DNA from: Branchiostoma floridae
Taxonomy: Eukaryota > Chordata > Leptocardii > Amphioxiformes > Branchiostomatidae
DNA: 64,000 nt
Assembly (NCBI RefSeq): GCF_000003815.2
Contig: NC_049983.1
Coordinates: 472,524-536,523 of the forward strand
Direction: 5' to 3'
Position 1 is the stretch's first letter, and each line of letters starts with the position of its first letter. The position numbers were made by a program, and so were the translations under genes. The notes beneath the pieces were generated by a model. It saw only the letters and a program-made list of their open reading frames with translations, was not told the origin of the DNA and searched no databases. Below are positions 11,267 to 57,943 of the stretch, piece after piece.

Positions 11267-11321
<55 letters not shown>

Positions 11322-32600: not shown

Positions 32601-35600
32601 GCAACCACGAGTGCCGGCAATGATAGAGGGTCTCATCGCCTTCAAGAACCAAGATCAAGGAGCCTGGGTCCGTGGGGGAGACATCTGGTTCAACAAATGC
32701 GCCTTCGTGGATAATGGGAAAGGACTGACAATGGCCAGGTACCATATCCATCTGTAGTTTTCAATCAAAACAAAGCTTTTCAGTGTCATTGTTGTCGTAG
32801 AGTTTAAGGACGGATTGCCCTAGGACAGATTGGAATTTGCGCCCTTCCTAGGACCGATTTAAATCGAGGTTCTACTGGCACAGATTGTGATCATCATCTG
32901 TCCAAGGACAAACTAGGATCTGATTTGATTGTGATTTCTCCTAGACGTATTACAATCCAAGATTTTACTACATCAGATTGTGTTTGCGTTAACCTAGCTC
33001 TACTGACCCCAAATCTAACCCATTCTTTATTAGCAGAATCGCGGATTGTCCTTGGCCAGATCCCATTCGCACTAAAATCAAAATAGAAAACGTTGTTTTT
33101 CCATTATCATAGATTGTTCTACCATTGTGTAAATCTACAATTGAATTTGAATTGGATGTGTTTCTACAGCGAGGGCACGTTCCCCAACGACGTGGGGTCG
33201 AGCCAGCAGGTGTGGAACAGTATCTTTATCGGGGAGAGTGAGAACGTGGGCACTGCCAGCGGGTCCAGTGTCTGGGGAATGGGAGGGGTCAAACCGGTGG
33301 CGAGGAGCCTGCCTCACTCGACGTGAGTAATGGTTTGAAAGACAGCTGGAGAACTTCAATTGCAATTCTCTTTTATATAATTCAAACCGCTGCATACGAC
33401 GAAAAACACATCATTTAATGTGTAAACATAACTCATCGTTGAAATTAGACCCGATTTCAGGAAAAGATGATCAATTGTGAATATTTCCGTAAAAATAGAG
33501 GTATTGCGTGTTAATTTGATTGTCTTGATGTGAACCAGTTGTTTGGAGTGACAGAATGCGAAAGTAACGTTGGTGTAACCGGGAGAATGACACGAGGGGG
33601 AGATTGGCTTTGCCCGGATCTAAAGTTTGTCCCGCCGCGATCAAGATCTGAAGGATAGCTCGGCCCGGGTCCAAAGTTTGTTCCACATAGATTGAACTAG
33701 CTAGAAATTCACAATGATGAATATAAGAAATTAATTTCGCAAAAACTAAATATCTCAAAGAGGTATGAGATCTCTTTCTTTCCTCTTGAATCGTAGTACC
33801 TATCCGATGCGAGGACTGGAAATATATGACGGTCCCGTTCTAGCCGAAAGCTGCACCTTCAAGAAGTTCGCCGCCGCCCCGGAGTACAACCGCTGGAGCA
33901 GCGCGATCGGATACCTCCTGGGCAACAACTGGCAAATGTCACCAACCAACAACGTCACAGGGGCAAAGTTTGAAAATGTGAGATGAGTTGAATGTGTTGA
34001 TAGTCTTTTTGGAAAATATGTTGTCCTTGATCTCCCCACTCTTCCTTACCATACCCCTACCTTTTTTCTCTATCCCAAAAGAGAGGGACAGAGAGAAAAG
34101 GCTACCATATTAATGAAAACGGTAAGGTACAGCAAGTATGAAAAATGACAGCGAATGAAGACTACGAGTTTGCCATACATACTGTGGTGAAAGTCAAACA
34201 TATCTACAACCTTTTTTCCGTGAAGACTCTAATTTCGGATACTCCTCTGTTCCCAGGTCCAGACCCGTGTGTTCCACGGCGGTAAGAACCTGCCCTGGTT
34301 TGGTACGTACGAGAAAGACGGTGATAAGTCACAGATTACGCATGACGTGGACGGCAGTGTCACCGGCTATCCTGACAGCTATGTAGTAGGACAGAACAAC
34401 TATCTGGTCAGGAACCCGGGATGTTTAGAGAAGTCTGAGTGGCGAGCATACGTCTGCAGCGGCAAATATGGACAGGTTGGCATGCAATATACCTCGGTCA
34501 TTGTACCACATAGTCCCTTGACTTTAAGGTCGTTGGTGGGACAACGCATACATGAAGATTGCACTAGGTAATAAAGCACAAAATGCCTATTTCCTTGTAT
34601 GTTTAAAGACAAAGGTCACGCACTGTGCTGTGCAGTTGCTATCATTGCCAAACAGAGGATGTAGATGTCACAGTCCTTTTGTTCCCATTGACGATCTTAA
34701 GTTTGTCTTTACCTCATTTTGCTATCTATTCATAGTTCTCGATATACATGATGGTTTAGTTCAGCTTTGCAGTCACTACCGAAAAGTTTTGGACGTTACC
34801 TTTTCCTATTAGATTCTATGCAGTTGTTTGAGTAACTAACTGTTACATCTTTTCTTCGGGTTACTCGTGAAACGTCAGTGGTTTGAGGACTTGTTGGGAG
34901 GGTGTGGGTGGGAAGGGTATCCTGTTGTTTGGTTTGGAGGGAATGTTTGCAATTTTTTGTATTTCGGTATTGTTTTGGATCTGGGGAGCCAATGGCTTGC
35001 AGGCGTCAAGCTCTGAAAGGCAGGGGCGCTACAGCCTGTTCACCACCATGCAGCTGGGTGATGGTGTCCCATGACCTCGTGTATCTTATGTTCTTGATAT
35101 CTGACCTTCATCATCAACATGAAGAATTTCTTTCCTACACACAGCTGTATATCCAAGCAAAGCAGCCTAACACCCTCGTCATGTCGATGGTCCGTGACGA
35201 GTATCCCGATCACCCACTTACAGTGAAGGGGCCTCTGAAGCAGGGTCCTAACGGTATGCAACAGTACCAACCTACGGTGATGCTGGAGAAGTCCTACACC
35301 ATCCACTGGAACGGCCGGGCTCCCAACCTAGTGACCGTCTACCCTGTAAACTTCAACAGGTAGTGCAAGCAAATAAAAGAATATTGGGATTGAATCGCTT
35401 CTCTTTGGTTGTAGCAAGTTAAACTACAATACTGCATTAGCTTGAGAGTTCATCTGTGTTGGTGAAGTTTGATAATTTTGTTCAACGTAAACAAGTGTAG
35501 TTCACTCGCTCTTGCGTCAGCCTTCTTCATCCAATTACTATTTGTTTCTCAATTCACGTGTCCCTAAGGTCAAACACTCAGGATATTTAATCAGCATCAC

Positions 35601-38600
35601 TCCTGAAGAAGGTCGACATAATAGTGACTGAAAATTCGAGTTGAGCTACATTTGTTTGAGTTGAACGAAAGTTCATCAATTTCAGCATTATGATAGTTTT
35701 CGTCCACAGACTTAATGTTTCGACCATCATCAGTGTGAATTCAAAATGTGTGTACTCTTCCATTGATGGGAAAGCTTACTTTGCACTTATAGGACAAGTT
35801 GTACAGATGAAGACAGCAGACATAGATTCGGCTTTCGAAATGTATTTGAACAAAAAATAAGGTTGTGTAACTGAACTAAGTTGCATCGATTTACTAACCT
35901 ACCTTATGAGGCTATTCATGGATGTATTGTTTAAATTCTGAAGTATTCATGGCAGAAGTAAATTAAACTTCGTGATAGACCCTCGTGATAGTTTTTGTCC
36001 CAAAATGTAGTTGATATATTCTAGTATAAACCTTACTTATCCCATTATCACCCAGTGGAGACTGGCTCCGGTTGGGACTCTGCTACCCCCCAGGAACCCT
36101 GTTCCGTGTGACGTACCAGCTGGAGAGGCGGTATCCACGCGCCGTGCTGCATGACGAGGAGATGAACCCCGTGTCGAGCCTGGCTTCTGTCGAGGGTGGA
36201 GACGGCAAGGTGTTCTACTTTGAGGAAAGCACAGGGTATGCGAAACCCGAGTGAACGTATGAATTATACGTTGTATTTCGCATACAATTGCAATATTGCA
36301 TATCTATCATTTAGCTGAAACATTGAAGTATTATTTTTTTAAAATTCATTTGCGTTTGCGGGGATTTCTCTTTCGCGGTAGCGGGAAAATGAAGTGTTCG
36401 CAGTGGTTTTGAGTTCGCGGTAGCGCTATAGACCGCCATCGTTGACGCGAACATAAAACCACCGCGATAATTTCTGCATGTGCAGTATTATCTCAACAAT
36501 ATCTACAGATCAATAAGTTCCCATATGTTTTTATTTGTAATACTGTAGCAGCACCCACGTTAATAGTTTTTAACAATTCTTACAGCTATATGTGTGAAGG
36601 TAAGATGTGGCATGTACTTAAATGTAATATAACGAGTTACTGCAACCCCGCGAACCTATATAGATGCAGATATTAGTACATTAAGTCCAAAGAGTAGACG
36701 AAGGCCAAAGAAAGATTATTGACAGTGACAATGAATTTTTTGCATATTCATACCCCATTGGGGCTAGATGCAGTCAGTTTGGTACATAGGCAGTAATAGG
36801 AAAGCTATATACATATACTACAGTTTACATGTTTCGTCTCGAGCTCTATTCTTAAAACATGCGTAGACGAGCTTACAGAGTTTTTCCAGTATATCGTAGT
36901 TAGATGATGACATAAGGTATTTGAACATATCTTCCTTCGTTAGGTGCGCATATTTTTTATCTATATGTGTAGCATTAGCGAATGCATTTCACAGATCTTT
37001 GTACAGTGAACACTCTAAACAAAGTCCTTTTCTCCATTTCAGCCTGTTATTCATGAAGATACACGCTAGCTACGATCGGGATGGCTACGACTACTGTTCA
37101 CACATGGGCTGTGAGAAGATCATCATCTCAGCCACCATGACAAGTGACGCGGTCAGCGACTGTACGGCAGCAGCTTATCCCAAGTACAGCCTGACGCCGA
37201 CAGAGACTGTCCCCATGCCGAGCTTCCTGAGCATGGTCAACGACTGTTCTGGATGTGGTGCTCCGGTGAGTTGGCACATTGCAAGAAATGGCGGCTGACG
37301 TTGTACAAATCACACCACAAATCACAAGACTAGTACAACACGTGAAAGATACATTCTGCATGGAAAATCATAGATTTTTTGACATAATTTAAAGTCAAAT
37401 TCAATACGGCTGGTCCACTTATCTGAAATCGTTGTATCACTAAAACGTGAATCAAGTGGTGGGCAAATGCGGTGACCAGAAGTTAGCATCACTGACGTTG
37501 CTATTGATATGTGACTAATGGACTTGTATTTTTCTAAAGGAGTCGATCGTCTATGACGACAACCTGAAGTACCTCGAAGTGTCCATTCAGTCTGCAGGAT
37601 GGGAGGAATTGCAGCTGGGTCACAGGTCCTTCGTAGAGGTGCGCTTGTATGCTTCTCTATCATATAGAATTATTTAACGCTCAATATGAGTAGAGGGTTT
37701 GAGAAGTAATACAAAATGCGACTTCAGACATGAACATTGCGTGAATCATGCTAGTTTTATGACAAACGGAGTTCTTGAACTAGTGTAACTGTAATATCCA
37801 ACACAAAAATTGGACTCACCCAATTTTCGACTGAACAGCACCAGTCTTTGTCAAGGAATGAACAATCCACTGCTGTCGTGACGTCACGTTATGTAGATAG
37901 AACACATGACTCAGTGAGCAGTGAATCATAGGTTGCAGGTAGTTTATGGTGAGTCCAATTTTTGTGTTGAATATTACAGTTAAAATAGCTCAAGAATGAC
38001 TTCTACCAAGACAGATGAACTTTCAAGTTAAGACAAACGGAGTTGTTTGACAAAAAATGAGTTGTTTGACGTATATGATGATTGTATAATTCAATGTGTT
38101 TTCCGACGCTCTTGAGTGGCGAGCGCATTATTAACTTAAAAATAATCCAGCTATAACCAACTTGATCAACGCTGTGCGTTGCTTTCAATCTTAGATAGGC
38201 GGAGTGAGGTACAATGGTCACCATCGTGGGTACCTCGTCATGAGTGTTGACGCACTGACTGGTGCCGTGGCGCACCGAATGACGTTCGACACCTACGGGC
38301 AACCTGAGTCTGATGCCGCAATGGCGAGCTTCATTCGAACCGTCATCCCACACAAGTAAGCGTGGACAAAAATGTATTTAGACAAAAGCTTTGTTATGAT
38401 ATGATGTTTGTATTGTGTACCAGGTACACCGCATCATGGCGTAACACACCAAATTTGTACTGAAGTGTACAATCCGCATATCCGGACCGATTTATCATGA
38501 CCTCTATTCTTTTCGATAAGTGCGATGAGTTCCTTAACGTGTTCGAGGTGTCGCTGTCCTCTCAAACTGGACCTCCATTTAACACCATAAACGAAGGACG

Positions 38601-39472
38601 TCTAACTGAAGTTAGGTACTCATTTATATCCGAGTGAAGTGAGGGAATTTGTGACATCGGGATCTTGGAGGGACACAAACTCTAAACCTTCAGGTTTTCA
38701 ATCAACAACACTGACCACGTGGCCACTGTGCCACCATGAATCAAATGAAGCACCTACAAAATGCCACATGAACTTTGAATAATTCACATGGTTGTGATTT
38801 GCAACTTTGAAATGTTCACTAACTGTAAACATACTGATTTTGTCTAGCTCCATCGTCCTTGTGTCGGTACGTGACGCAGCACACGTTCATGCCCAAGAGT
38901 GTCTGAACGCTTTGAAGGAGATCGGGGCACAGGAACCTGTCCAGACGGAATTCAGAGGTGGGGTCTCTATTTTCTACGGCCTAGTAGAGCCATGAGTGTT
39001 TTGGTATCGCTAACTAATGGTGCAGCCACACAACCGTGCATATCAAGTATGTGTGTATTGGCATTTGTTTCATACGCCGTCCTGCGCACAATACGCACCT
39101 TATTCGCATCTCAGGCTTGCGTAGAGTACTGTCAAGTATGCGTACCTAAAACGATTTACATGTAAAAAAAAAACGATTGAGATGCATATGATTATGAGGT
39201 GCCTATTAGGCGTATAACTTATATCACGCCACATCACAAGAAAATATATTCAAATTCTTTAAGTTTAAGAGGCTAGGCCTGCATACAAACTCCAGAGAAA
39301 ATTAAAGAAAACTACCTACGCCTAATCCGATCTTATTCTATTGATTGTTACAGGCAATTTCGCCATGGTTGGTTTCAAGGGCACCGTGTGGCCAAGCTGG
39401 GTCCAGCAAGTCAACCTGCCGGCCGGTCAGGGTCCGGCACAGATCTACGCCAAGATCCCGCTCATGGGCTGA
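23616..39472 (+). CDS. CEMIP-like: Gene B: secreted CEMIP-like hyaluronan-processing protein, 24 exons, close paralogue of gene A
   Basis: Exons: 23616-23682, 25442-25579, 26026-26303, 26884-27164, 27517-27587, 28070-28162, 28338-28529, 29338-29507, 29997-30206, 30614-30816, 31000-31069, 31522-31650, 31985-32070, 32571-32738, 33170-33322, 33797-33977, 34257-34475, 35145-35359, 36056-36235, 37043-37265, 37540-37638, 38195-38355, 38848-38957, 39354-39472. Each exon has exactly the length of its gene A counterpart (3816 nt, 1271 residues), with no indels in coding sequence. Domain order and residue numbers are as in gene A: signal peptide, G8, ILEI-1, beta-helix, ILEI-2. The R175/D183/D196 pattern is intact. 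It lies 1.4 kb downstream of gene A on the same strand, and upstream and intron-1 blocks are shared with A, so it is a tandem duplicate. Polyadenylation signal AATAAA at 39497. I see no disabling mutation, so it is probably functional. Confidence 0.95.
25442..28162 (+). CDS. Gene B exons 2-6: G8 and first ILEI/PANDER-like domains
   Basis: Residues 23-309, aligned without gaps to gene A. G8 motifs TPWNPGHD, SETCPYQGK and GGTLEIHG are intact. The ILEI-1 core differs by conservative changes (HVIDE instead of HVMDE), and the R-x7-D-x12-D residues are kept at 175, 183 and 196. The acceptor of exon 6 follows an ATTC microsatellite directly. Confidence 0.88.
26565..26835. repeat. Gene B-specific segment in intron 3 (possible insertion)
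   Basis: GC-richer than the surrounding intron, with repeated GTGACA words (CTCGTGACACC twice near 26800-26820) and a C-rich core. Gene A intron 3 has no counterpart. I found no terminal repeats or frame, so its class is unknown. Confidence 0.3.
28002..28062. repeat. (ATTC)n microsatellite adjoining gene B exon 6
   Basis: About 15 tandem ATTC units ending 7 bases before the exon 6 acceptor (CTTCAAG, exon from 28070). The repeat takes the place of the polypyrimidine tract; gene A has ordinary intron sequence there. Confidence 0.9.
28338..36235 (+). CDS. Gene B exons 7-19: parallel beta-helix region
   Basis: Residues 310-1034, the same exon lengths as in gene A (192, 170, 210, 203, 70, 129, 86, 168, 153, 181, 219, 215, 180). 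Motifs WQPGDHIVLASTDY, GIEFTRMGQQ, HHCFSRC, VLDHNLG and GLEIYDGP are conserved. In exon 8 the DNA differs from A at many synonymous sites where A matches C. Confidence 0.88.
36350..36485. repeat. Interspersed CGCGGT repeat in gene B intron 19
   Basis: Contains TTCGCGGTAGCG twice and GCGAACATAAAACCACCGCG. A related copy lies in gene C intron 24 at about 56700-56785 (GCGAACATAAAACCATCAAG), so it is a mobile repeat and not a conserved intron element. Confidence 0.55.
37043..39472 (+). CDS. Gene B exons 20-24: Cys-rich linker and second ILEI/PANDER-like domain
   Basis: Residues 1035-1271. Cys motifs CSHMGCEK and DCSGCGAP are followed by YLEVSIQSAG, GYLVMSVDALTGA, SIVLVSVRD, ECLNALKEIGAQ and FAMVGFKGT, ending IPLMG. 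This domain has more amino-acid differences from gene A (for example in exons 22-23) than the beta-helix exons do. Confidence 0.88.
37786..37982. mobile_element. 197-bp MITE in gene B intron 21
   Basis: Terminal inverted repeats 37786-37820 and 37948-37982 match over 35 bases with one mismatch; the inner 22 bases are perfect. The ends read TAACTGTAAT and ATTACAGTTA, compatible with a TA target duplication as in Tc1/mariner-type MITEs. The interior is non-coding. A partial relative is in gene A intron 17. Confidence 0.85.
38480..38740. repeat. SINE-like repeat in gene B intron 22
   Basis: Shares CTTTTCGATAAGTG, GACCTCCATTTAAC and the tail with the unit at 2283-2600. The end near 38705-38735 (ACCACGTGGCCACTGTGCCA) resembles a reversed tRNA-like head. 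Confidence 0.5.
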
Positions 39473-42358: not shown

Positions 42359-42435
42359 GGGGCGACAGATGTTCAGAATGCGCCATTTTCACGTTATTCG
42401 GCGACAGAGGAGGGTCTAGAATCAATCGAAGAATT

Positions 42436-42490
42436 ATGGAATTCTTTCTACTCCTGTGTCTAGTAGCAACTGCGACATCGGAAAGAACAG
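42436..42490 (+). CDS. Gene C exon 1: signal peptide
   Basis: Eighteen codons plus one base. The peptide starts MEFFLLLCLVATATS, a short basic-poor hydrophobic signal with likely cleavage after Ala or Ser near residue 15. It is unrelated in sequence to exon 1 of genes A and B but ends in the same phase (1), so it can splice to a phase 1 lectin exon. Confidence 0.8.
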
Positions 42491-45400
42491 GTCAGTTATC
42501 AAAGTTGATGTACAGATGACCACATTCGTCGAGTTTCATCCGTTTTAAAAATGGCAATAATGTATATCATACCAAGCAGCTGTTAGATGCAAATTACATG
42601 CCATTAATTATAATAATTAAGAAAATAGAGTGACTCACGCTATTTAAGTACTACTCCTGTGAGTTGCGTATTGACAGATCTTTGCGGGGAAGAAGTTTCA
42701 TGTCACAAAAATATACTTTGCCCCTACTTTACATAAACCAATGTCAATACGGAACTTTCTCGGAGTTGAATACAAGTGCACATACGTACATCCACTGTAC
42801 TTTTATTGTTTACGTATTGTCACAATTAACAATGTTGTGTTGCACTCTATATGCTTTAGGTCAGAGCGATGGGTCCACCAACATAGCCTTGCTAAAGCCT
42901 GCCTACCAGAGCAGTGTGTCATTCGACGGTGAGCCAGCACGTGCCGTGGACGGCAGCACAGGCGGTGTCTATGACAAAGGCACCTGCACACATACAGCAG
43001 TTCATGGGGAGGACAGCCCCTGGTGGTACGTCGACTTACAAGAAACATTTGAAATCGGCCGCGTTGCCATCTTTAACAGGATAGACTGCTGCCCCGAGAG
43101 GATAAACCCGTTCAACCTACACATCGGAGACAGCAGTGACGTGACGACAAACCCGAAGGTTGGAGGAGATTGGAGTTTCTCTTCCGAACAGGGTCAGCAG
43201 CTGGTTATCCATGTCAACGGGACGAAGGGACGGTACGTGGGGATCAGTGCGCCTGGCAGCTACCGGTTTCTCACTCTGTGCGAAGTCCAGGTTTTTGAAG
43301 GTAGGTACGATACAGCCTACCATAGAAACAAATAGTAAGACCACAACAAAACTATCATAACATTAAACGTCAAAGTTGACTAATCAAAATGGGCATCAAA
43401 CACCTCTTCATTGGGAAAAATGGCGGCGCCCATAGACGAGAGCGAAGTCAATAAAGGTAGCATTCAGAAGTCACTCAGCTTTCGGAGACCAGTTTCGAAA
43501 ATTCAGCATTGCATGAAGATGTGTTTGAACCGTGGTGTTTATAAACAGTTAACGCCTGAGTCTAAATCAAATGCGACGGTATCTTAAATACTCCTGTCGT
43601 AACCAAGGTGTGAAGTAGGTACTAGTACGTAAATTCGTTCAACAAGTCTCTGAGTAACCAAAACTGCTATTGTTGGTCAAGGTAGCCTTTGTAAGAACAA
43701 TTAGAGATAAGTGAATGGTTAGACATTTCACGTATCATCCACTACCGTTTGCTAGTGAAACTAAGCTAGATGTGCAGATCAGCTGGCCTTTTACGAAAAA
43801 CTAGTCAGAATGAAGTATGAAAGCAGACCGAACTTAAGAATTCAAAGGCCATTTTCGTACAAACACTTTGGATATTACAGTGAAGTGATTCATCTTTTTT
43901 CCTTCCACCTCCCTCACTATCCTCCTGTATCGCTTTACATCTTCATTAACCTTTACCTTCCTGCCTGACCCAAAACCCTACTGATTTGGTGCCAAAAGAC
44001 TACCTATAAGCAGGGGAAGGGTTAAGATGGCCAACACTTTGAAGACATTGGGACTTGACACATGACCTGTGTCGTCCCCCGTCTCTGTCTGTCGGTGGAC
44101 TCGAATGAATGCGCCCATGATTTGACCAGAATTAAAAGTTGTTCATTTTTCTCATTGTTTAGTCCAAAGGGACATCGTTGCGAACCTGGCATTGAGACAG
44201 CCGACTTCCCAGAGTAGTTTGGACTGGAGCGGTCCGTCAGGGCTTGCAGTGGACGGTGGTCGCAGTGGGTCCTACGATGATGGTTCCTGCACACACACGG
44301 CCACAGAAGACAACCCATGGTGGTACGTCGACTTAGGAGGAACCCAAGAGGTCGACCACATCACGATCTTCAATAGGGTAGACCACTCTCCCGACAGAAT
44401 CAACTACTTCAACCTGCACATCGGAGACAACAGCGATGTGACGGCAAACCAAAAAATCGGAGGAGACTGGACTTTCGCTCCGGGAGAGGCCGAGAAGACC
44501 ATACAAGTCAGCGGAACAAAAGGGCGGTACGTCGGCATCATTTTGCCTGGCAGCAACCGGATTCTTACCTTGTGCGAAGTGGAGGTTTACGGAGGTAAGG
44601 CCGATTATTTACACCCATTTTCAACTTCACACACTCCAACCGTTGAGGAATGATAGGAATGCACTTTTCTCACACTATGTTGAGTAATCATTTCAAAACA
44701 TTTATGCTCGCTGTATAGAGAAATATGTTTGCCTTCCATGTTTATCATGACACGTTTGATATCTCCTTGTGTAGTATGGAGATGCCCGGATGTACTGCCG
44801 ACCCCTGTGACCGAGGACCACCAGTGCCCGGATGTAGACCGGACGTTGACCCCGTGGAACCCCGGGCATGACCCCACTGCGCAGGTGGTTGTGGGTGGAG
44901 GGCAGAGCTTCCTGCTGCAGTCGTCTGCAACGTTTTACTCGTTGGAGATCAAAGATGGAGGTATGTTGCTTCTATGAAGATATGTGCGATTTTGTGACGC
45001 CTTAGGAGCGGAGCAATTGGCTTGTCACTGCCAAATATCTGCAATTTCTACATACACATGCTGTAGGGGATTTGTTTTTTTGGCAATGCCTTATGTTCGG
45101 TGCCCTATTATATCTATGAAGTTGATAATTCTGTTTTTGTGATGATAAATCGATATCCGCAAAAGCTACTGCTGAATTCGCGCAAAAACATTAGGCTGAA
45201 AAATACGTCACTCAACCGAAAAGAGACAATAGTTGATACGGTACTGGATCACTTTGAGTTGTAATATACTAATCCCCATTCTTTTTTGTCCCAGGGCGGG
45301 TTGTATTCGCCGACATGGGCTCCACAAGTGACTATGAGATTTTCCTGAGGGCCCGTGATGTAACAGTGGGAGATGGCGGCGAGTTGCACATCGGCAGTGA

Positions 45401-48400
45401 GACCTGCCCGTACCAGGGGAAGGCCACGGTGTCCCTGTACGGACGCTCGGACGATAACGTCAACAGCACCAAGCAGTTCCTTGTGACGTCAGGCGGGACT
45501 CTTGAGATCCACGGGCAACGCAAGGTGGCGTGGACACAGCTCACACAGACAGTGCCACAAGGTGGACTTCCTAAGGTTCGTGTAGACCTAGACTACGTAT
45601 ACATGCATTCATTAGTTCATAAAGAACGCCCATTAATTGGTGGATGAAGAGCGTCCATTTGACTACATGTCATATAGTGCGTCAATGAAGATTAAATACC
45701 CAGGTAACGAGGTCATCAATACAAAAGTTTCTCAATTAACTGGATATTGTTTTGTATATATGGTCAGACGTCTCGTCTAGCCTCCGTTTTCTTTCCTCTA
45801 TTAGTGTGCAACATTTACAAAAAAACAGCAATTGATCAAGAACATCGTATTTAATAGGGTCCATATTGGTGGGACTCGTTGAGAAACACATGGCATCGTG
45901 GCATCAACGTTCGCGTTATAGACGAAATAACAGCGGCTGTGGTTGACTCGGCAACTTTCGACACTTCGCTCAACGAAGAAAACAGTCGAAGTTTGGCGAC
46001 TTTCATCGACCTAGTCCCCTCGGGAAGAATCGTGGCGCTGGCTGTGCAGCAGCATGCTTCCCTGGAGGCCTCCGCCAAGGAGAAGCTCAGGGAGTTGGGT
46101 AGCGTGGAGGTGGATTCACTGGGAGCATGGTAAAGAAGCCGTAAACTGTTCAGATAAGAAATTTAATTTTTCTTCTGTCTTGGTCTAATATAACTGTACA
46201 TCTATCCATCCTGTGCCTCTCGCTAGCTGAGCCAATACCTGAATCAGGGTGAAATAAGTGTGATAATTTGTAAGCCGGGGTACGCTCCAGCAGGACATTA
46301 ATAGCATCCTATCTCGCAGACTGCTAGCATCTCTGGCCTTTATTCCATAGAGAAGCGCTGGTTCCCGATCTCCAACGTTGCCTAACATATTCTCATACTG
46401 GAAGAGGGAGTGACCTAGTTAGAGAACCTATTGGTAAGGCAATTTTTAAAATTGCGATCAAGCCTTTCTTTAAAAATTAAATCTCAGAGATACCAGAAGT
46501 CTGCGAAGGAGGCTAATGAGTTAAGACCATTGGCACCATACTGAATGATGCAAGCCACATATATGCTTCAGGGAACCTTGGGCATTTGTGGGAGTTAAAG
46601 GAAAACCAGGGACTGCTGTGGAACAGAGACTTCCACATATAGGTGAGAACTCATTTCTTAGTGGTACCACCTGATTTTTTTCTCCGCTGCAATTGCATGT
46701 GCGTATCTATCTAATAGAATAGACCTATTGCTAATGATGGCTTATCCTTTGTTTACAAATAATCTAGATGCACAATCCACGGGTACGGCGAACGTCACTG
46801 CTACGTTCCAAGCGTTTTTCGGCGACTTTGACGTCATTGCCACAAGTGCATGGGTTGGAGGTAACCGTTGCAATAGTGCTTTTTCATTATTGCTCAATTG
46901 ATTTCTTTTGACAGGTCCCAATGTGAATATGTACTATGTTACAAGTCACGGAATCCCACACGTTATTTACATTCAGGTTCATAACTTCACGTTTATCTTC
47001 AGGCTCAGCGCGAAGCACATTTTCTGTGGGCCGACATGACGATGGGTACGTCATCAACCTGAAGGATGACGTCAGTTCCTGGCTTCCTGGAGACCGCATC
47101 GTCATGGCCAGCACGGACTACAACATGGAGCAGGCAGAAGAGTTCCAGCTGCTGCCGTGTCAGGAGTGCTCGAGCCACCAGGTCAAAATCAGCGGTAAGA
47201 TACCGTCATCTAAGTTTCTTAGCAAGACACTTCTGGACGATACAAGTCAAGGAGCTTTTCTCTGACATGCCAGACATGGACTCGTGGCGACTGTAGTATC
47301 ACCTCTCTGAGGAGGAAGTTTATAGAAAATCCTTACAAAATCTGTTCTGTTACATGATAGCTTGTATTAATTCAGAAGTTCTTGAATATACAAATACAAA
47401 TACTTGAAACGCTTGTACGTTTGCCAGAAAAGTCGGTCAAAGATGCGACCAACCACTTTTCTAATTCATCAATATTGTGATCTTAAACGCTACTGGTATG
47501 TTTTTTTCCAGTACTACCAATAAAGGCTACCCTGAAGTACACGCAATCAAAACAAAAAACAAAAACAATGATTTGTATTATTTGCCTGTACGATCTGCTG
47601 TCGTACAGGTGACATCAGGTACATGCATTTCGGAGAGATCTCGGATGAAGTAGACTTGCGGGGAGAGGTCGGTCTGCTGACCAGGAACATCAAGTTCCAG
47701 GGGGAGGTAGAGGATGGCTGCTATGGCGACAACAAATGTCAGTTCTTCGACTTTGACACATATGGAGGACACCTTAAGGTTTGTTTTGCAAATTTTGACT
47801 TTTCATTAATAGACACATTTTTGTTGAATTTTCTGTTGTTTTGCATGAAAACGTAATTATAAGCGTCCGGGCTGTAAAATTGGAACTTTAATTCCTTTCT
47901 TGCAACAAGAAATATGTTGAAAAAATTCCCCGTTACAGATTCTGAGAGGTTTCAAGAACGTCCACTTGTCCGGTATTGAGTTCACCCGCATGGGTCAACA
48001 GATCTTGGGCAGATATCCTGTCCACTTCCACATGACGGGAGATGTGGACGAGAAGGGATGCTACAGCCGCCCAACGTACGTCCGAGAGCTGTCCATTCAC
48101 CACTGCTTCTCCCGCTGTGTGACCATTCATGGCACTCATGGACTGCTGGTCAGTCTTTCCTTTATTCTGTTTCTGACGAGACCTTTGTGTGGCAGGCAGA
48201 TAGTATAGTGAAAAACCTCAAGCCAACCCTACACATTCCTGCCATATATTCAGAAAAGCCACTGTATCCACATAGTTCCCGTGTAAAACTTTATTAAAGC
48301 CCTCCACCAGACTAGAAACCTTTGTGTGGCAATTTTGTCAGTGCCTATGTCTTTGGCCTTGGCAATGTTGCGGCTGCACCTGTCTTTCCAAAGCGACGTA

Positions 48401-51400
48401 AAATCAGCGTCCCGCGTTCAAGATTCCTCAAGCACGTCAAAGGGAAAGGGCTAGTAACACTTAGAAACTCTTAGAAAATACCATGCTTCTGAAACAGCAA
48501 GGAAACCAGCCGACATATGTGTCCGTAAGTAGTAAGTATTACAAAGTGAATAGGAACAACAACAATGTGTCAAATAGTAACAAATTTTAACAAGACGGTT
48601 ACTTTTTATCAGGTACAAGACACAGTCGGTTACGAGACCCTCGGGCATTGCTATTTCCTTGAGGACGGAGCGGAGCAACGCAACGTTCTTGACCACAACC
48701 TCGGAATGTCGACCCGATACGGCACTCAGCTGCCCACCGACAGGGACGAAAACATGTGCCGGAACATACTGGATGGGGTGTACGGCGATTACACTCCCAA
48801 TGTGTATGCGGACTGCATGTAAGAACAAAATGCTTTTGTAAAGAGACATTTGCCACAATGGAGGAATAAACAAAGAAAACTAGTTTTCAATAGTCTACTA
48901 GATTCTACTTAACATGCAGATTTTCTAATCATGCAGCTTTGTTTCCATTCTTCGACATTTAGGATGCTCAGCACGTTTTGGATCTCCCACCCCAACAATG
49001 ACCTCATCAACAACGCGGCTGCCGGCACCCCGGTATGTTTTTTTTGTCATCACTTTTCCATACAGAAAGCATGCAGTAACTGTGCTATTCGTCTTACGAA
49101 GAATGCAGTCTTATTTTAAAAGATTTTGACTGAAGTCTTCGTTGATGCGCTTATAAATCTGTCACTTATCTAACGATATTTGCAAATAATACTATGCAGA
49201 TCATGAGTCGTGACTCTTGCAGAGAATTCAATGTGGCAGATAGCTTATGACATTGGCTATTGCAATATCAGCTTTAAAAACAGTTTTGTCTCAACTATTA
49301 TACTTCAAGTTCAGTCTGCTTTATCCATACATTTTCGGTTATAAAAGACTGTTACCGTTGGGGAATATCCACAATTGGATAATATTTGTATTCCATTCTA
49401 ACGTATGCCTGTATGCAATCACAGGGCATTGGTATCTGGTACCTCTTCCACCTGGAGCCATCAGGTTTATCAGCGGGGGCACTTCCCCCTCTACAGTCAT
49501 CGTTCGCTCCCATGGGGCGGTTTTACAACAACAGGGCGCACTCTAATGCACAAGTATTTATCATAATTTTTACTGTTTTCACCTGACCGACTGCTGTATC
49601 AGATATTATGTCTTTCAAGTTTATAAGCGTCAAACCAAGACAAAGTAAGAAGCTTGTACGCATTTATGTCACACGAAACATTACATGTTGTCTTATTTCT
49701 CTCACGAAATTAGCTGTTACATTGCTCGACCATGACTACTCGATCAAACTGACACAATCGAATGATGTTCGTATGTTTATTGCAAAGGCAACGATGATTT
49801 ATTATTGTCCATACAAGCGGCGTCGCTTGGTTTAATATCAAACTAAAAAGAAGTCCAGTGTGGACAGCTTGTCCGAAATGAACACGTTTTTTGTGTCTTT
49901 TTAGGGGTTGCTAATAGAGGGTGGGGTCAAGACCACACCCTCAACGGCGTCTTCGCCGGCTGAATTCCTGGCCAAGTTGGGTGGAAGGTAATTGTCTTTG
50001 GAGTTTTGGGAGAAACCCAACTTGAACTTCAATCACACACCGTAGACTTTGGATACGTAGATACTTTATTCAGCCCAAAAGGTATACACCAATTTGCAGG
50101 TAAAATGACGTAAAACTTCATAGAATTTTATCAGTCAGTACTAAGAGACCAAAACTTGTTGTGTTATATAGGTGCAAGTCTCAAAAGTACTCATATTTGC
50201 CAAACAAAACAACGTGTTAATGCCACATAGGTACAAGCCTCACCAGAACTCGGACCTGCTACAGCCCCGTGTACCGGCCATGCTGGAAGGGTACACCGCC
50301 TTCAAGAACCACGTATGGGGTGCCTGGGTCCGCGGTGGTGACGTGTGGATCGACAAGAGCGCGTATGTTTATCTCGATAGACTTTTGATAGCTACAAGAG
50401 TGCGTATGCGACATCCAGAAGCATTTATAAAGGCTGCGATATACATGTTATGTAAAACGTATCTTTTCGAGGATCTTTGATTTAAAAGGAGTTGTCCTTA
50501 GAGAATCATGATGACGTAAGATTGGTTTTCATGACAGATATCTACTGCCATACAGACATACATGTATCTCAGACCTGCGGCCAGATTAAATTCTTTAACA
50601 TAAAAGGGTAATGATATGACATGTTAAAAGAAAATGTTTAAAGTCATTTTATTCCGATTTTGTTCTATGTTCAAGGTTTGCTGACAATGCTATAGGCCTA
50701 GTGATGGCAAGGTAAGTCATTGAGAATAGACACACAATTTAGGTTAAATAGCGGTAATAAGTATACAACATTACTAATGAAACCTTGCCGTATTGCAATA
50801 AACACCACATCAAAAATGACAAACATGAGCAGAAACATCTATGTAATAAATGATGGTATCTACAAACTAGACTTCGCCGACCTCAAACCTCCATGATTTT
50901 ATGCAAATGGCTTATATGTTTGCATAGTTGTGCATCGTAATGTTCACCTTCAACTAACACATATCACAAGTATACAGTTCCCACCATTTATCATTGAGAG
51001 ATTTTTGCATTAATCATGCAAATCAGTTCCTCGGTTGCATGTCTGGTATCTGTCTATTAAGGTTCAGTTATGGAAAACAATGAAATAATACAATTCCCTG
51101 ATTAATTATGCAAATTAAGTCCTCACTTTCATAATATTCATATCATTGTTTATATCTATGCCAAACTACCTGCCCAAAATGTTTTGACAAAAATTCCCCT
51201 GCAGTTCCAAAATCAAATGTGTGTGTGTGTGTTGGGGGGGGGGGGGGGTCGTCAAACATGTCACACCGTAAAAAGCCAACCGAATGTGGGTGTTTCTCCG
51301 AAACAAGAGATACATCGAAAACATTGCTATGATAGTAAATTATATATATTACATATATTAAGCAAATGTGCTCCTATTTTGCATAATTTGTTTTTCATTT

Positions 51401-54400
51401 TGTATATCTTTGTCTAAGCTTTTTCTAAGCTTTGTCTTCAAGCTAAAGTTTGTCTTATCCTCTTCGCTTTTACAAAAATGCCCATGCTTCTCCAAAAATT
51501 TCCCTTGGAGGCCTAAACTTCTTTCCGAGCACGACAGCTACTCGTAGATGACACCAAAGAAATAGCGGCTTGTGCAGAATATAAGATAACAAACCCAGAC
51601 GTTCCACAAAATCTAATAATTTCCAGTTTTTGTCAGACCCTACGAACACAGCAAGTATTGAACCAATCCATACTGACGTTCTTGAGCTGTCTTGTTGACA
51701 AACACCCAGAAAAACTCTAGTGAAAATATAATCTCCATGACATACTTCAGGGAGGTAATTTACATCCATGCGTCACCTATTGGGGAACAGCAATGAATAC
51801 TTCCTTATTCCTATTCAACGCAGTGAAGGAATATTCCCTGGCGACGTTGGGTCGACCCAGCAGGTCTGGAACAGTATCTTTATCGGAGAGAGTGAGAACG
51901 TGGGCACGAAGACTGGATCCATGCACTGGGGCATGGGGAGTGTCAAACAGGTGGAGAGGAGCTGGCCCCATTCTACGTGAGTGTACATGTGCAAATTTTG
52001 TTTGTATTTGCCTTGTTGTCTTCAGAGCTAATCTGGCAGTAATCTTACTGATTGCTTTAACGTTGTCTATACCAATAGTGCATTTTGTTGCGTCGATATA
52101 GTTTAGACATCCAGGTAATACGATATGCCAAAAAGCAGTTACTCATGCCTTGACAAGCTACTGGATATGATTTTGGAAACGGTCAGATGTTTCAACTGGA
52201 ATCCACCAGTTTTCGTCAGTGACACTGACAGTGACACTACTGCCAGTTTGTTGAATGAAATCATATGGTGCATTGAGGAATGATGTTTTGTACTGAACAT
52301 ATCCATGCAAAATTTTAGCAGGCTAGTCAAGACTTCTTTCGTGATCATACTTCAGCCTTTTCTGATTCCTGTATCTCATTTCACTCTCTGATGTACTCAC
52401 TAACTCAATCACACAATCATTCGCTCACTCTCATTCTTACTCTGTTATGGCAGACCCTTGCAATTGTCAAAGAAAGATTTTGCACCACAATACGGTTAAA
52501 GTTATCCTATTCGATAACAATGTTGAATATCATTTGATATCATACGTGAATGTACAGATTTAAAATTTGTAATGACTGTTCGAAATAACGCAATTCAGCA
52601 TAGAGCTTCAAATATCTTTCAAGTTCAATAATTCATTTATTAACTTATTCATTGATGCATTCATGAGTTTATTCATTCATGCATTCATTCATGCATTCAC
52701 GCATTGTAATTTTAAATCAATTCATATGTAAAATCTTGTGAACTCACTTATAGAGAGACCAACTTACGAGGCATTGACATCTACGATGGCCCCATCTTCG
52801 TGGACAGCTGTACTTTCAAGAGGTACGCCAAACTACCCGAGGCCGATCGGTGGAGCAGCGCCATTGGGTTCCGCGCTATGAATGTCTGGCAAAATACGCC
52901 AAAGAACAACTTTACAAGGTCAAAGTTTGAGAACGTAAGTGCCTTCCGTAACTCGTATATGTGCTATGCCTTGGGTTGAATTCGATTATATGGAATTCCA
53001 TTACGTTCCACATTGACTTCGCTCGTTTCAAAACATACTGTAAATCGTACAAGAATTTGTACAATGAGCAGATATTTTCCGTAAACTGCCAAACAATTCG
53101 GAAAACAGTAATTTCGCAAACAAAGTCAATTCAAGGAAGACCTGATTACAAATAATAAAGAATCATGATTGTTCTTTACATCACACTCTGTCAAACTTTC
53201 TGACCAGTTAGATTTAAAAACGATGGCAACTTTTTTTCTGCCAAACGTTCCTTCGCACGTTCTCATCAGTTCTGGGGTTTCCAATGATGTCATCGACATA
53301 TTCGAGTCTTGGCCTTAACAACATTCTTTATCATTCTGTCTGTTATAGCATATATTTTATTTGGTAGTGGTATTGAAGTTATCTTAAACTACTGTAATAA
53401 CAATTTTGCACTATGTTCCTAACAGCGTTTTCTGGAATTAATGCAATTTCTTTTTGATAAAAAGAACTTGTTTTCATTTGTCTAATTTTCCTATCAGGTT
53501 GAAAGCCGTATTTTTATGGGCGCGGCGGGATTGTCAGGGTTCGGCGAGCACAACTTAGACGGCGACAAGACCAACATTCTGCACGACATGGACGGGAGCC
53601 TCACCGGCTACCCGGACAGCTACTTAGTCGGGCCGGATAACTACCTGGTCAGGAACCCCGGCTGTGTGGAGAAGCCTGACTGGATCGGTCTCGTCTGTCG
53701 TGGAGAATATGCATCGGTTAGTACAGACACCATCAAAGATGTGGCGTCAGTGTGGCGTAATGGTTGGGTGCTTGACCCAGACCCTCTAGGTCAGGACCTC
53801 AGTGGTCTGAGCCAAACATTCTGCCATTTATTATAAGCCACAGTTCGAATCTATTGACATGCTCGGTTGACAGTGTACCATTGGTAAAAGCATTTTAGTA
53901 GTCTTCCTTTTTTCACTCAGGTGAAAATGAGTTCCTGACTGCGGTTAGAGACGTTCCTCGTATAGGAAGTCCCGTTTTTGAGGATAGCCTCACTCCGAGC
54001 ACATTAGATATCCCACCACGCTTATGAAAATGAGTTATGTTTTTTCCCAGTGTGTGTATATAAAAAAACCTGTTCGGATTCCCAGCCTCTTCGGAACAAA
54101 TCTTGTGTGTTACGCCACGAACCGATTTGCTGTTTCTGCAAAACAAACAAGACTTAAGTGACCAGAAAGTCACAGGGGTCATCTCAAATAACATTCGAAG
54201 AAAGCAGTGTCTCTCTGAGAAAAGCTCGCTCCATGAAAGCAGCCTCATCTTTGACTCTTGTTTTTTCATGCATTCATCCGCAGGACCCAACATATCAAAT
54301 CCCCCACTGTTAGACTCCTTACGTCAATGAAACTGCTAAACGGAACAAACTTGGACCAGGATGGGAAAGCTTAGAACCTACCTGTTCCTTCTAGCAAAGA

Positions 54401-57208
54401 AAGTATCCAAACTGGGCAAAAATTATCAAGAAAAAGGAGGAATTTTAAGACTTCTAGCCGCTATAATCGTAGTCCCATTTGAGCCTACTGCGCAACTCAA
54501 CTGTGTGTGGTATCTGCCCTTCTGTCCACAGTTGTTCATCAACACTAACCATCAGAGGAACCGGATGTCCATGTACCGTGACGAGTATCCGGACAATCCG
54601 GTTACACTAGAAACTCCTTTTACGACAACTTACTACATGCCCGTGGTAATGTTGGACAAGTCCTACACCGTCCACTGGGATGGAAAGGCTCCAGAGGAAA
54701 TAAATGTCTACCCCATTAACTTTGACAGGTTGGTTTGCTTTAGTTTGTTTCCAATACAAAATAAAATACATTACATTAAGGCCAGTTAACAAAAACAATA
54801 CTTCAGTCCTTCACATCTGAATACATGCTTAGATTAATGACCAATTACAAGCTGTCTTTATTAAACTAGTATTCGTGAAGTATCCTGAACTCAGACCAAC
54901 GCTGCTTCCTGAAACTGTGTAAACAGCTCTGACCTCCAGCCAACTCTTGCAACCTTTCTCAGACCTCTCTTCTTGCCTAATTAGCATGACTACGGTTCAG
55001 AGTACGTATGTGCAACGACAGTGATTTTGGTTAATGTGTCAAAGGTTAACGTGCGTGACTTTTAAACTCGATTTGCATAACAGTATCAAGATGCGATTTG
55101 TTTATAACTTAGGGACCTTCACTTTGACATATTACCCATCATCCCTGTCGCTGCTCATTGAATTGATATTTTATTACAGTGGCGACTGGGTCCGAGTGGG
55201 CTTCTGTTACCCGCCGGGAACCAACTTTAAGGTGACGTACCAACTGCGGACTCAAGTCCCATGGGCCATCGTGTACGAAGAGGACGTCAGTTCTGTGTCA
55301 AGCCTTGCTGAGATAGACGGTGGTGATGGAAAACTCTACTACTTCGAAGAAAGCACAAGGTATGAGGAGGTCATTCCCCAAGCAGAGGTTTCTGTCGGGG
55401 CTATAGTTGTGACGGGATCACTTACGGTTGCCTACTTCCAATACTATCTCCCCAAAATGAAATCTCTGATCATTATAGAATAAATGTAGAATACAACACG
55501 GTGTATTCAGTATCACCCGAGGTACAAGCCCGACCGCGGGAAGGATCGCCCGACGGCTGAAGGCTATGCTATACAGCAGTTTCATTGACTTGATGAGTCA
55601 AAGTCACCTGAGAAAACTCATGTTTTGATATGAATGCACCGGAAATTGAGAAAATGATGTGTACTCGAACAAAACATTGTAACAATATCAATTCTAACAT
55701 CCAAATCCGCTATTAGAATTTTCAACCTTGCCACACTCGGCCCGCTCGAAATAGTTCGATTTACTTGAAGGAAGCCCGTGTGATACAACTTCGAAGCCTG
55801 TGTGATATAGAAAGTTATCACACGGTCCGGAACACCTGTAGGCTGTATCGAACGTTTTCGCGGCAAGTATGACATAAAGGTCTTACAGGTCTGAGGCTGC
55901 ATTGCTTAACACTACGTGTCATGATTAAGTATAACATGGTCATCAATAAAACACAGTTATCTTGGGAGCTGATTTCCTCAACTTCGATGGTTTTTAATGG
56001 TATTTAAAGAGTTACTATTCAAAGTAAACTGCATTAAGTTTTGTTGCATGTTGTAGTAACATTTTTTGTATAGCCTTCTGTTTCTGAAAGTCCGAGCTAA
56101 CTACGATCGGGAAGGCCATGACTACTGTTCACACATGGGCTGTGAGAGGATCGTCATCTCGGCCACCATGACAAGTGACGTGGTCAGCGACTGTACAGCA
56201 ACAGCTTATCCCAAGTACAGCCTGACGCCGACAGAGACTGTTCCCAGCCCGACCTTCATGAGTATGGTCAACGACTGTACAGGATGTGGTGCTCCGGTGA
56301 GTATACAGGACAATAAATAATCATGGCTTATTGTTTATTTTATGCACATTTTATGCAGATCTGGTACATTGTTTCAACGTCGTATGAATTGTAAGTAGAA
56401 TGTGATAAACATAATGCGTGTACTCTTTGTGTGTACAGGAGCCAATTGTGTTTGATGAAGGCAAGACGTTCGTTGAAGTGACGGTTGTGTCATCCGGGTC
56501 TCGCGAGATGCTACATGGCCACGGATCCTTCGTCCAGGTATACATCACTTCCTAATGAATATGTATTGAATATTCAAAGATTGGGGCCTATCTTGGTAGT
56601 ACTTTCGCGTCTTCACCGTAACAGGTGTGCTAAACATAATATTATCTTAATACTGTACAACGTGTAGTGCGATTAGGCAAAGGGGTAAGTGGTAAGGAGA
56701 GAGAAAGAAAATCGTGGTGGATTTCAGTTCACGGTGAAACGGTCAGAGCGAAAATCGCGAACATAAAACCATCAAGGACTATGTATATTGTTTGCCAGAT
56801 GGCTAATGTTTTTTCGCACTTCAGATAGACGGTGTCCAGTTTGATAGCCATCACCATGGCCACCTGGTCATCAGCGTTGATGCCGTGTCTGGCTCGGTCA
56901 CACATGAAATGACGTTCCACTCTGGCGCTGAGCTGGCCATGGCAACCTTCATACGCCACATTATCCCTCAAAAGTAGGTATTATAGCGTCAACAAAAACT
57001 CCATTAACTAATCATAGTAGTAATTACATATTAATTTTCCAGTTTTATTGATAGGGCTTTAGGTTCCAGATAAGAGATTCTGAAGCAGGTTTGATTATAC
57101 TTATACATTTCCTGGAGGTATAGTTTTGGGTTTTCCGCGTGTGTGTACGTGCGTGCGTACGCATGTGCGTGCGTGCGTAAGTGTGTGCGTGTGTGTGTGT
57201 GTGTGTGC

Positions 57209-57239
<31 letters not shown>

Positions 57240-57943
57240 TGCGTGTGCATGTGTGCATGGTGACTGACCCTCTTAACAAGACGTTGATTGCAACATTGCA
57301 GCAAAGTTATTGGACAAAAGCCTACAACTCATTTCTCACGAACTCTTTCCGTCCGTCTAGCTCCATAGTCCTGGTGGCAGCTTCTGACGCCTCTAGTCTG
57401 ATTGTGAACTCACAGGAATGTCTGTCAGCTCTGAAACAGCTCGGAGCGCAGGAACTTGACAACATTAACGTCGGAGGTTAGTTGTCCCCGTTGTCTTCTG
57501 TTCTAAAAAGCTTTTAAAAAACAAGAATGATTCACAGTTGAGATCATGGATCTAACTACTCAGTAACCTGGTAACTGGGGGACTCAAAGTAATGGCTACT
57601 GGGTTGGAACTGCACTCGTCTTTCGGAGGGGGTGATTGTGGTCACGTGTTTGAGAAGGTGCACGTTAAAGGAAGGGCTAACAACTGCTGCCTTTCAAAAT
57701 ATACCCTGCAACTCTTCCCTATGAAAAAAAAATACCCTGTGGCGGAAACAACAAGGAAAATTTGTCACAAGGCAGTACGTTGTGAATAACAAAAATTCTT
57801 ATTTGATCATCAATCTTCCCATAGGGACGTTTGCCATGGTTGGCTTCAAGGGCACCTTCTGGCCCAGCTGGATCCAGCACGTCAACCTGCCGTCCGGTCA
57901 GGGTCCGGCACAGATCTACACCAAGATCCCGCTCATGGGCTGA
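42436..57943 (+). CDS. Gene C: CEMIP-like protein with two N-terminal F-type lectin domains, 27 exons
   Basis: Exons: 42436-42490, 42860-43300, 44163-44594, 44775-44960, 45295-45575, 45858-46129, 46572-46642, 46768-46860, 47003-47194, 47609-47778, 47939-48148, 48613-48818, 48963-49032, 49425-49553, 49905-49987, 50231-50362, 50676-50711, 51824-51976, 52754-52934, 53498-53716, 54532-54728, 55180-55359, 56074-56296, 56439-56537, 56825-56973, 57361-57476, 57825-57943. The sum is 4695 nt (1564 residues plus TGA). Domains: signal peptide 1-15, F-type lectin 1 about 19-165, F-type lectin 2 about 166-309, G8 about 322-465, ILEI-1 466-610, beta-helix about 611-1300, ILEI-2 about 1405-1560. R479/D487/D500 match the R-x7-D-x12-D pattern. 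From G8 onward it is homologous to genes A and B but more diverged, with small codon indels in several exons and one extra intron. Fucose targeting of a hyaluronidase-like core is inference. Polyadenylation signal at 57976. Confidence 0.94.
42860..43300 (+). CDS. Gene C exon 2: F-type lectin (fucolectin) domain 1
   Basis: A phase 1-1 exon encoding a complete domain, residues 19-165. It starts NIALLKPAYQSS and runs through AVDGSTGG, CTHTAVHGEDSPWWYVDL, the RIDCCPER motif, FNLHIGDSSDV and TLCEVQVFEG. H67, R92, D94 and R99 fit the F-type lectin consensus H-x24-R-x-D-x4-R exactly, and the vicinal Cys95-Cys96 pair that contacts fucose in eel agglutinin is present. The family binds terminal L-fucose; binding here is predicted. 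Confidence 0.92.
44163..44594 (+). CDS. Gene C exon 3: F-type lectin domain 2 (partly degenerate site)
   Basis: A phase 1-1 exon, residues 166-309, with the same fold signature as domain 1: NLALRQPTSQSS, AVDGGRSG, NPWWYVDL, RVDHSPDR, FNLHIGDNSDV and TLCEVEVYGG. It is one residue shorter before NPWW, which removes the His of the H-x24-R motif, and the Cys pair is replaced by His-Ser. The two basic residues and Asp of R-x-D-x4-R remain. Weaker binding, altered specificity or a structural role are all possible. Confidence 0.9.
44775..46860 (+). CDS. Gene C exons 4-8: G8 and first ILEI/PANDER-like domains
   Basis: Residues 310-610. Exon 4 is 48 nt longer than in A and B because the CPDV lead-in occurs twice before TPWNPGHD. 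G8 motifs SETCPYQGK and GGTLEIHG are conserved. Exon 6 (ILEI-1) is strongly diverged from A and B, yet R479, D487 and D500 keep the R-x7-D-x12-D spacing, consistent with retained function. The exon 5 donor is GTTCGT, a weak site that still keeps the frame. Confidence 0.88.
47003..55359 (+). CDS. Gene C exons 9-22: parallel beta-helix region
   Basis: Residues about 611-1330. Exons 9-11 are almost identical in sequence to A and B, while exons 15-21 are diverged and carry codon-sized indels (83 vs 86 nt, 197 vs 215 nt). The 168-nt exon 14 of A and B is split here into 50231-50362 and 50676-50711 by a 313-base phase 2 intron. Motifs GIEFTRMGQQ, HHCFSRC, VLDHNLG, WISHPNN and GIDIYDGP mark the helix repeats. 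Confidence 0.87.
50865..51760 (-). mobile_element. ATGCAAAT-rich repeat copy in gene C intron 17
   Basis: Begins ACTAGACTTCGCCGACCTCA and ends near CAGGGAGGTAATT, reverse orientation relative to the copy at 14421-15325. It shares the ATTATGCAAATTAAGTCC and CAAAAATTCCCCTGCAG phrases and has a GT/G-run at 51219-51249. It ends 64 bases before the exon 18 acceptor. Confidence 0.65.
53751..53855 (+). repeat. tRNA-derived SINE-like sequence in gene C intron 20
   Basis: An A-box-like TGGCGTAATGGTTGG at 53753-53767 and a B-box-like AGTTCGAATC at 53842-53851. It lies 35 bases after the exon 20 donor. The distance between boxes is longer than in a tRNA, as in some SINEs. Confidence 0.45.
56074..57943 (+). 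CDS. Gene C exons 23-27: Cys-rich linker and second ILEI/PANDER-like domain
   Basis: Residues 1330-1564. Motifs: CSHMGCER, DCTGCGAP, HGHLVISVDAVSGS, SIVLVAASD, ECLSALKQLGAQ and FAMVGFKGTFWPSWIQH, ending KIPLMG. Exon 25 is four codons shorter and exon 26 two codons longer than in A and B. The last exon is nearly identical to that of gene A, including synonymous sites. Confidence 0.88.
57139..57257. repeat. Alternating purine-pyrimidine tract (GT/GC)n in gene C intron 25
   Basis: Almost 120 bases of alternating TG and CG, with a pure (CG) core of about 16 bases near 57207-57223 flanked by (GT)n. This composition is prone to Z-DNA. It lies about 100 bases before exon 26. Confidence 0.9.

Follow-up and report, generated by a model that had tools for sequence, protein, structure and literature searches.

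Genomic locus of gene C

The 64-kb window analysed here (C5:472524-536523 of Branchiostoma floridae; "window" denotes this whole stretch) carries the CEMIP-type genes A, B and C. Gene C, the subject of this analysis, is predicted to encode a secreted protein in which two F-type lectin domains precede a complete CEMIP body. An in silico splice chain places it on the plus strand at 42436-57943 (C5 ~514.96-530.47 kb), with 27 exons, a product of 1564 residues and a stop at 57943. The order along the product is signal peptide, two F-type lectin domains, G8, ILEI, beta-helix, CEMIP domain X and ILEI. The modelled features are as follows.

2773..22244, plus strand: gene A, CEMIP-type tandem paralog, 24 exons, 1292 residues, open (splice model)
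23616..39472, plus strand: gene B, CEMIP-type tandem paralog, 24 exons, 1271 residues, open (splice model); its residues 19-1269 align with the TMEM2 ectodomain structure 8c6i (E=0)
42436..42490, plus strand: gene C exon 1, start codon and signal peptide MEFFLLLCLVATATSERT, ending in phase 1 (GT donor; sole candidate by a crude rule)
42860..43300, plus strand: exon 2, F-type lectin 1, phase 1-1, 441 nt, with RIDCCPER and AVDGS (PF22633 5.8e-19; 3cqo 2.9e-46)
44163..44594, plus strand: exon 3, F-type lectin 2, phase 1-1, 432 nt, with RVDHSPDR (PF22633 2e-18; 3cqo 4.4e-56)
44775..44960, plus strand: exon 4, linker and start of the G8/beta-helix part, with an extra VWRCPDVLPTPVTEDHQ ahead of CPDV (splice model, comparison with A, B, D and E)
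45295..45575, plus strand: exon 5, most of G8 (PF10162 1.5e-18 on the exon; product residues 339-455)
45858..46642, plus strand: exons 6-7 (45858-46129, 46572-46642), first ILEI (GG, lectin-like domain 1; residues 479-566)
46768..49987, plus strand: exons 8-15, start and middle of the beta-helix (PF24606 at residues 725-937, 9e-87, within exons 10-15)
50231..53716, plus strand: exons 16-20, remaining beta-helix region (homology to A and B, and through B to TMEM2 8c6i)
54532..56296, plus strand: exons 21-23, most of CEMIP domain X (PF24605 at residues 1202-1378, 1.5e-73)
56439..57943, plus strand: exons 24-27, C-terminal ILEI (lectin-like domain 2) and stop (position assumed from the order of domains in related proteins)

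The first four exons have GT/AG borders and are joined in phase 1. The splice-chain script is a simple one that uses splice matrices and hand-picked homologous coding cores and admits stop-free exons alone, so that the open frame of gene C arises partly by construction. In length and phase, the body exons for the most part agree with their counterparts in paralogs A and B. Exons 16 and 17 of gene C (132 and 36 nt, 50231-50711) correspond to a single 168-nt exon in A (11401-11568) and B (32571-32738); the intron that splits them was either gained in C or lost in A and B.

An earlier note on this DNA, made from the letters alone, had described a signal peptide, two lectins, G8, ILEI, beta-helix and ILEI in one phase-consistent frame with a product of 1564 residues. 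Splice model and Pfam agree on this arrangement and the splice model reproduces the length. The interval given for it (42436..46129) takes in only the first six exons, and the modelled gene runs on to 57943. The domain search of the product, for which the note had asked, returned two stretches of PF22633 (2.5e-36), G8 (2.3e-23), two stretches of ILEI (1.7e-33), CEMIP_beta-hel and CEMIP_X, all of them above the curated cut-offs. The complete CEMIP body (G8, two ILEI/GG domains, CEMIP beta-helix and domain X) is thus present in the product.

The signal peptide of gene C is the only candidate in 41500-44774 by the crude rule (ATG, hydrophobic core, phase 1 donor). With this hydrophobic start in exon 1, and with no hydrophobic tail seen in the product (by eye; a dedicated predictor was not run), gene C resembles CEMIP, which is described by a signal peptide without a transmembrane anchor, and secretion of its product is predicted.

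Paralogs A and B show the state without insertion. Their signal-peptide exon ends in phase 1 and is directly followed by the CPDV..G8 exon. No F-type lectin was found in A or B by tblastn of the window against itself, where each lectin exon has the other as its sole match, and Pfam found no PF22633 in the product of gene B (two in C). The notion that each lectin is one phase 1-1 exon, shuffled into the phase 1 intron between signal peptide and G8, is supported by this intron without an insert.

Lectin-bearing relatives on the same contig

Profile searches were extended to the whole 513-Mb genome (PF22633, 150 of 647 candidates scored; G8, 33 matches with 38 scored; CEMIP beta-helix, 77 with 83 scored). 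Lectin exons adjoin G8 exons in two further genes of contig C5, termed D and E, both on the minus strand and ~25-70 kb beyond gene C. Outside this cluster, among the matches listed, lectin and G8 are nowhere less than 100 kb apart; within it, the same set of matches places the lectins nearest to Z, A, B and F, genes without a lectin of their own, in C or E, at distances of ~17-60 kb. The fusion gene proposed at the outset stands, and forms with D and E a subfamily of three genes in this genome.

Gene E was examined in 591,478-601,400, which ends at exon 14; it has a signal peptide, one lectin, G8 and the body, open for 797 residues up to that exon. Gene D (examined in 553,090-564,500) likewise has a signal peptide and one lectin ahead of G8. 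It carries a second phase 1-1 lectin exon between exon 7, with which the first ILEI ends, and exon 8, in a second phase 1 intron. Exon 4 is lengthened by a partial repeat of its CPDV start in C, D and E; A and B lack this extension. The exon 4 match starts at CPDV or CPDA in genes Z, F, C17a, C3a and C3b, and unlike residues stand ahead of it in C13 and C5c. Since the same joint occurs in two further genes and the body exons of C mostly match those of A and B, the junction of lectin and CEMIP parts in gene C is beyond chance.

These comparisons bear on the reading that the lectin exons make up a gene of their own upstream, or are optional cassettes left out of most transcripts, in which case C would often be a plain CEMIP. 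The symmetric 1-1 phase would preserve the frame on skipping and plain CEMIP paralogs exist, so that some skipping may occur. Against this reading, the gap between lectin 2 and exon 4 is only 180 bp and holds neither a polyadenylation hexamer nor, by the crude rule, a second signal-peptide candidate; the same order recurs in D and E, and the CPDV-repeat extension is confined to C, D and E among the genes with exon 4 matched. On the strength of the short gap, the lack of a further signal-peptide candidate and the order in D and E, a separate upstream lectin gene was judged unlikely, and the reading as a whole, cassette exons included, is quite improbable. An origin of the lectin exons from a contaminant was likewise not supported, as they are spliced and lie within a tandem animal gene cluster.

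The cluster at C5 446-626 kb consists of seven CEMIP-type genes, namely Z (minus), A, B and C (plus), D and E (minus) and F (plus). Nine further CEMIP-type genes or parts of genes were picked up outside this cluster, which makes for an expanded family relative to the two human genes.

The F-type lectin domains

The two lectins of gene C are 58% identical to each other. The best structure match of both exons, at the E-values listed above, is the two-domain lectin FBP32 (3cqo). It is followed in both cases by fucolectin-related proteins, the eel lectin AAA (1k12; 7.9e-16 for lectin 1 and 1.9e-15 for lectin 2) and Sm-hPAF. Up to an E-value of 0.001, the PDB matches comprise six distinct sequences: FBP32, two fucolectin-related proteins, 1k12 and two Sm-hPAF chains. 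The chains of the platelet aggregation factor Sm-hPAF are, we take it, F-type lectin modules. Assignment to a generic F5/8 discoidin domain was rejected, as PF22633 scores above PF00754 and the PDB matches are the six just named. A predicted fold of lectin 1 was poor (mean pLDDT 57, two sequences) and was not used.

All five fused lectins of C, D and E carry the RXDX4R segment of the sugar-binding triad (by eye), and a His aligned with that of FBP32 is found in both lectins of gene C. The fucose motif H-X24-R-X-D-X4-(R/K) was accordingly taken as present in gene C. Its His-Arg spacing, counted by eye, is HX28R in lectin 1 and HX26R in lectin 2, the latter as in domain 1 of FBP32; a literal X24 spacing is found in lectin 1 only from its second His and does not occur in lectin 2. 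The lectins of gene C are likely to bind glycans bearing alpha-L-fucose.

History of the lectin exons

The tree of body exons comprises 15 rows (a 16th gene was left out as too short). C, D and E form one clade (100/99) and the lectin-less gene F is next to them (83/85). The lectin tree contains the five fused lectins and 24 others from the best loci of the genome; among the lectins sampled, the fused ones form a single clade (99/99). Here D_N and E_N pair (98/94), the internal lectin of D is their sister (96/91) and the branching of C_L1 and C_L2 is left without decision. Synonymous divergence is 0.296 for D_N-E_N, 0.363 for D_N-D_int, 1.273 for C_L1-C_L2 and 1.155 for C_L2-D_N, values that do not contradict a history with one gain. 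The ratio of nonsynonymous to synonymous divergence (dN/dS) is 0.15-0.32 in the lectin exons, on account of which the fused lectins appear to be kept by selection, and 0.19-0.22 in the CEMIP parts. Judged by the shared clades and the constraint on the lectin exons, C, D and E are a real, inherited subfamily of putatively secreted CEMIP-type proteins with F-type lectins.

The simplest reading of these sequences is a single gain of the lectin by the C/D/E lineage. In the common ancestor of the three genes, a phase 1-1 F-type lectin exon would have inserted into the phase 1 intron that follows the signal peptide. The lectin would then have doubled in C, or before the split between C and D/E with subsequent loss in D and E. 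Before or about the split of D and E, it may have been copied to the second phase 1 intron in the lineage of D, followed by loss or gene conversion in E.

The repeated recruitment of lectin exons, in D even inside the body right behind the first ILEI, would also suit a protein whose lectin and body share one fucosylated polymer (a glycosaminoglycan, mucin or microbial exopolysaccharide), instead of a lectin anchor combined with action on hyaluronan. B. floridae, however, has more than 70 F-type lectin sequence clusters, with mosaics that include diverse other domains (PMC5712786, excerpt). Given so many clusters in varied combinations, repeated recruitment needs no shared substrate, and we regard a shared polymer as improbable.

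The CEMIP body and the proposed function

The residues aligned with those required for hyaluronan loss (R187 in CEMIP; R265, D273 and D286 in TMEM2) are kept in A, B and C, where they lie in the first ILEI. A change of R265, D273 or D286 is reported to cause loss of TMEM2 activity (PMC10276149). All three are located in lectin-like domain 1 of the TMEM2 structure, and R265 sits where POMGNT1 has a sugar-binding residue (PMC10206443, excerpt). According to the same excerpt, the ILEI/GG domains of CEMIP-type proteins are of a lectin-like kind, with sugar binding predicted for domain 1. The earlier statement that CEMIP-type proteins have no lectin domain needs to be changed for this reason: lectin-like domains of another kind are already present, and what is new is the F-type kind. 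HYBID and mouse TMEM2 are reported to be active on hyaluronan in cells, HYBID by depolymerising it (PMC10276149), and TMEM2 has been called a bona fide hyaluronidase (PMC10474455, excerpt). According to one review, hyaluronan occurs in every chordate from Amphioxus onwards (PMC10939387, excerpt).

Taken as a whole, gene C probably encodes a lectin-tethered, secreted, polymer-processing protein that arose by exon shuffling. Its lectins would bind glycans bearing alpha-L-fucose and tether the secreted protein, much like the carbohydrate-binding module of bacterial glycosidases. Tethering would hold the lectin-like ILEI domain and the beta-helix at high local concentration on a polymer of GlcNAc and uronate, e.g. 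hyaluronan, which the beta-helix would cut. Cutting by the beta-helix of gene C is the least certain of these steps, with chances nearer to even. The initial proposal of a fucose-directed protein that acts on hyaluronan is likely in its first half, given the triad of the fused lectins; its second half we infer, and published assays conflict. A part in innate immunity or matrix remodelling, also suggested there, is conceivable.

Several observations weigh against this interpretation. With regard to the gene model, a number of donors of gene C score near or under zero in the splice script, three polyadenylation hexamers lie in the intron between lectin 1 and lectin 2, and transcript and protein are predictions from genomic sequence. 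One of the three fusion genes may be decaying, because exon 11 in the beta-helix of gene D (~554.6-554.8 kb) shows a frame change in this assembly (..RNVHLARIEV.. followed by RMGQQILG..), unlike C and E; it represents either decay or an assembly error.

With regard to the lectins, the Cys-Cys pair of lectin 1 (RIDCCPER) is absent from lectin 2 (RVDHSPDR). Most duplicate tandem F-type lectins, e.g. MsaFBP32, have the triad in both domains and have lost the Cys-Cys pair in one (PMC5712786, excerpt), so that, as far as this excerpt goes, the asymmetry of gene C is usual. The cation motif is given there as h2DGx with x being N, D or S. AVDGS in lectin 1 fits it; lectin 2 and the lectins of D and E have AVDGG and depart from it.

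With regard to the body, position 248 of TMEM2 aligns with Pro, and position 303 with Leu in C, Gln in A and Glu in B (read by eye). Active mouse TMEM2 has His248, which is also His in HYBID, and active forms have Ala303; human TMEM2, with Asn248 and Phe303, is reported to be non-catalytic, and activity loss has been shown only for the double change to Asn/Phe (PMC10276149). As the residues at both positions differ, degradation of hyaluronan may be absent in gene C. For the TMEM2 ectodomain, hyaluronan binding or cleavage was not detectable and the active site was unassigned (PMC10206443, excerpt). With catalysis by CEMIP and TMEM2 disputed and positions 248 and 303 different, cleavage of hyaluronan by gene C is uncertain.

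The same data lend themselves to a CEMIP body without enzymatic function, i.e. a secreted multivalent binder (an opsonin, mucus cross-linker or adhesion protein) that displays F-type lectins and the lectin-like ILEI domain on a beta-helix rod. The unassignable active site and unseen cleavage of TMEM2, and the non-catalytic human TMEM2, whose deviating positions are Pro and Leu in C, would agree with such a binder, as would the role of some F-type lectins in immune recognition (PMC5712786, excerpt). It is opposed by the retained equivalents of R265, D273 and D286, by the strong conservation of the whole beta-helix body (dN/dS ~0.2) and by the reported depolymerisation of hyaluronan by the related HYBID. 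We hold this alternative to be tentative, with a real but lesser chance of being correct, and prefer the tethered, polymer-processing protein. In a wider proposal, C, D and E together act as an effector system of the lancelet: the lectins would select fucosylated mucus, matrix or microbes, and the beta-helix, drawn to the polymer through avidity, would cut it, while shuffling of lectin exons between phase 1 introns of these genes would yield products with lectins at two sites of the body. This we consider rather unlikely.

Relation to known systems

The body of gene C has the same complete order of G8, ILEI, beta-helix, domain X and ILEI as the vertebrate proteins CEMIP (HYBID, KIAA1199) and CEMIP2 (TMEM2). 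It shares a signal peptide with CEMIP, unlike the membrane-anchored TMEM2. It differs from both in the two F-type lectins ahead of G8, the extended exon 4 and the residues at positions 248 and 303. The described make-up of CEMIP-type proteins comprises a signal peptide or anchor, G8, GG and PbH1, and an F-type lectin is not part of it (PMC10276149). By the addition of two PF22633 domains to this make-up, gene C represents a CEMIP body in a different architecture.

Among lectins, the basic triad is that of striped bass MsaFBP32 (3cqo) and eel AAA (1k12), with the difference that the lectins of gene C are fused to a CEMIP body. Tandem lectins of the MsaFBP32 type also resemble gene C in that one domain of the two lacks the Cys-Cys pair. 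The streptococcal fucolectin-related modules 2j1r and 2j22 are homologous to the lectins of gene C and provide a working model for targeting. We take them to be CBM47 modules of streptococcal origin, attached to glycoside hydrolases or other carbohydrate-active proteins. They are bacterial and their partner is not a G8/beta-helix protein as in gene C. The mosaic F-type lectins of B. floridae (Bishnoi 2015, cited in PMC5712786), compared by description only, resemble the lectins of gene C in being combined with other domains, which are of diverse kinds.

Lancelets are known for extreme 1-1 exon shuffling. Together with the more than 70 F-type lectin clusters, this makes a fusion of F-type lectin and CEMIP expected in kind. 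A published description of a fusion between F-type lectin and G8/CEMIP was not found among the papers listed by searches of open-licence literature, which does not include Bishnoi 2015, the likeliest place of an earlier mention. The cluster on C5 displays exon shuffling in steps within ~130 kb of one contig, from the un-inserted state (A, B) to one lectin (E), two in tandem (C) and the use of a second intron (D). Weak affinity and a possible need for clustering have been offered as one reason for the failed TMEM2 assay (PMC10206443, excerpt), and CEMIP-type proteins with built-in lectin anchors beside lectin-less paralogs would be a ready-made test of this avidity idea.

Further observations

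The bacterium Deinobacterium chartae is the only one of 14 control genomes that matches both the G8 and the CEMIP beta-helix models, and CEMIP-like proteins may therefore exist outside animals. Within the window, the stretches 14460-14768, 19074-21822 and 59275-59834 are mutually similar on both strands in a translated search and represent a repeat, perhaps of a transposable-element-like kind. A stop-to-stop frame of 258 residues on the minus strand (62298-63074) contains four near-repeats of GYTPMASL and a proline-rich part, and may form the end of another gene.

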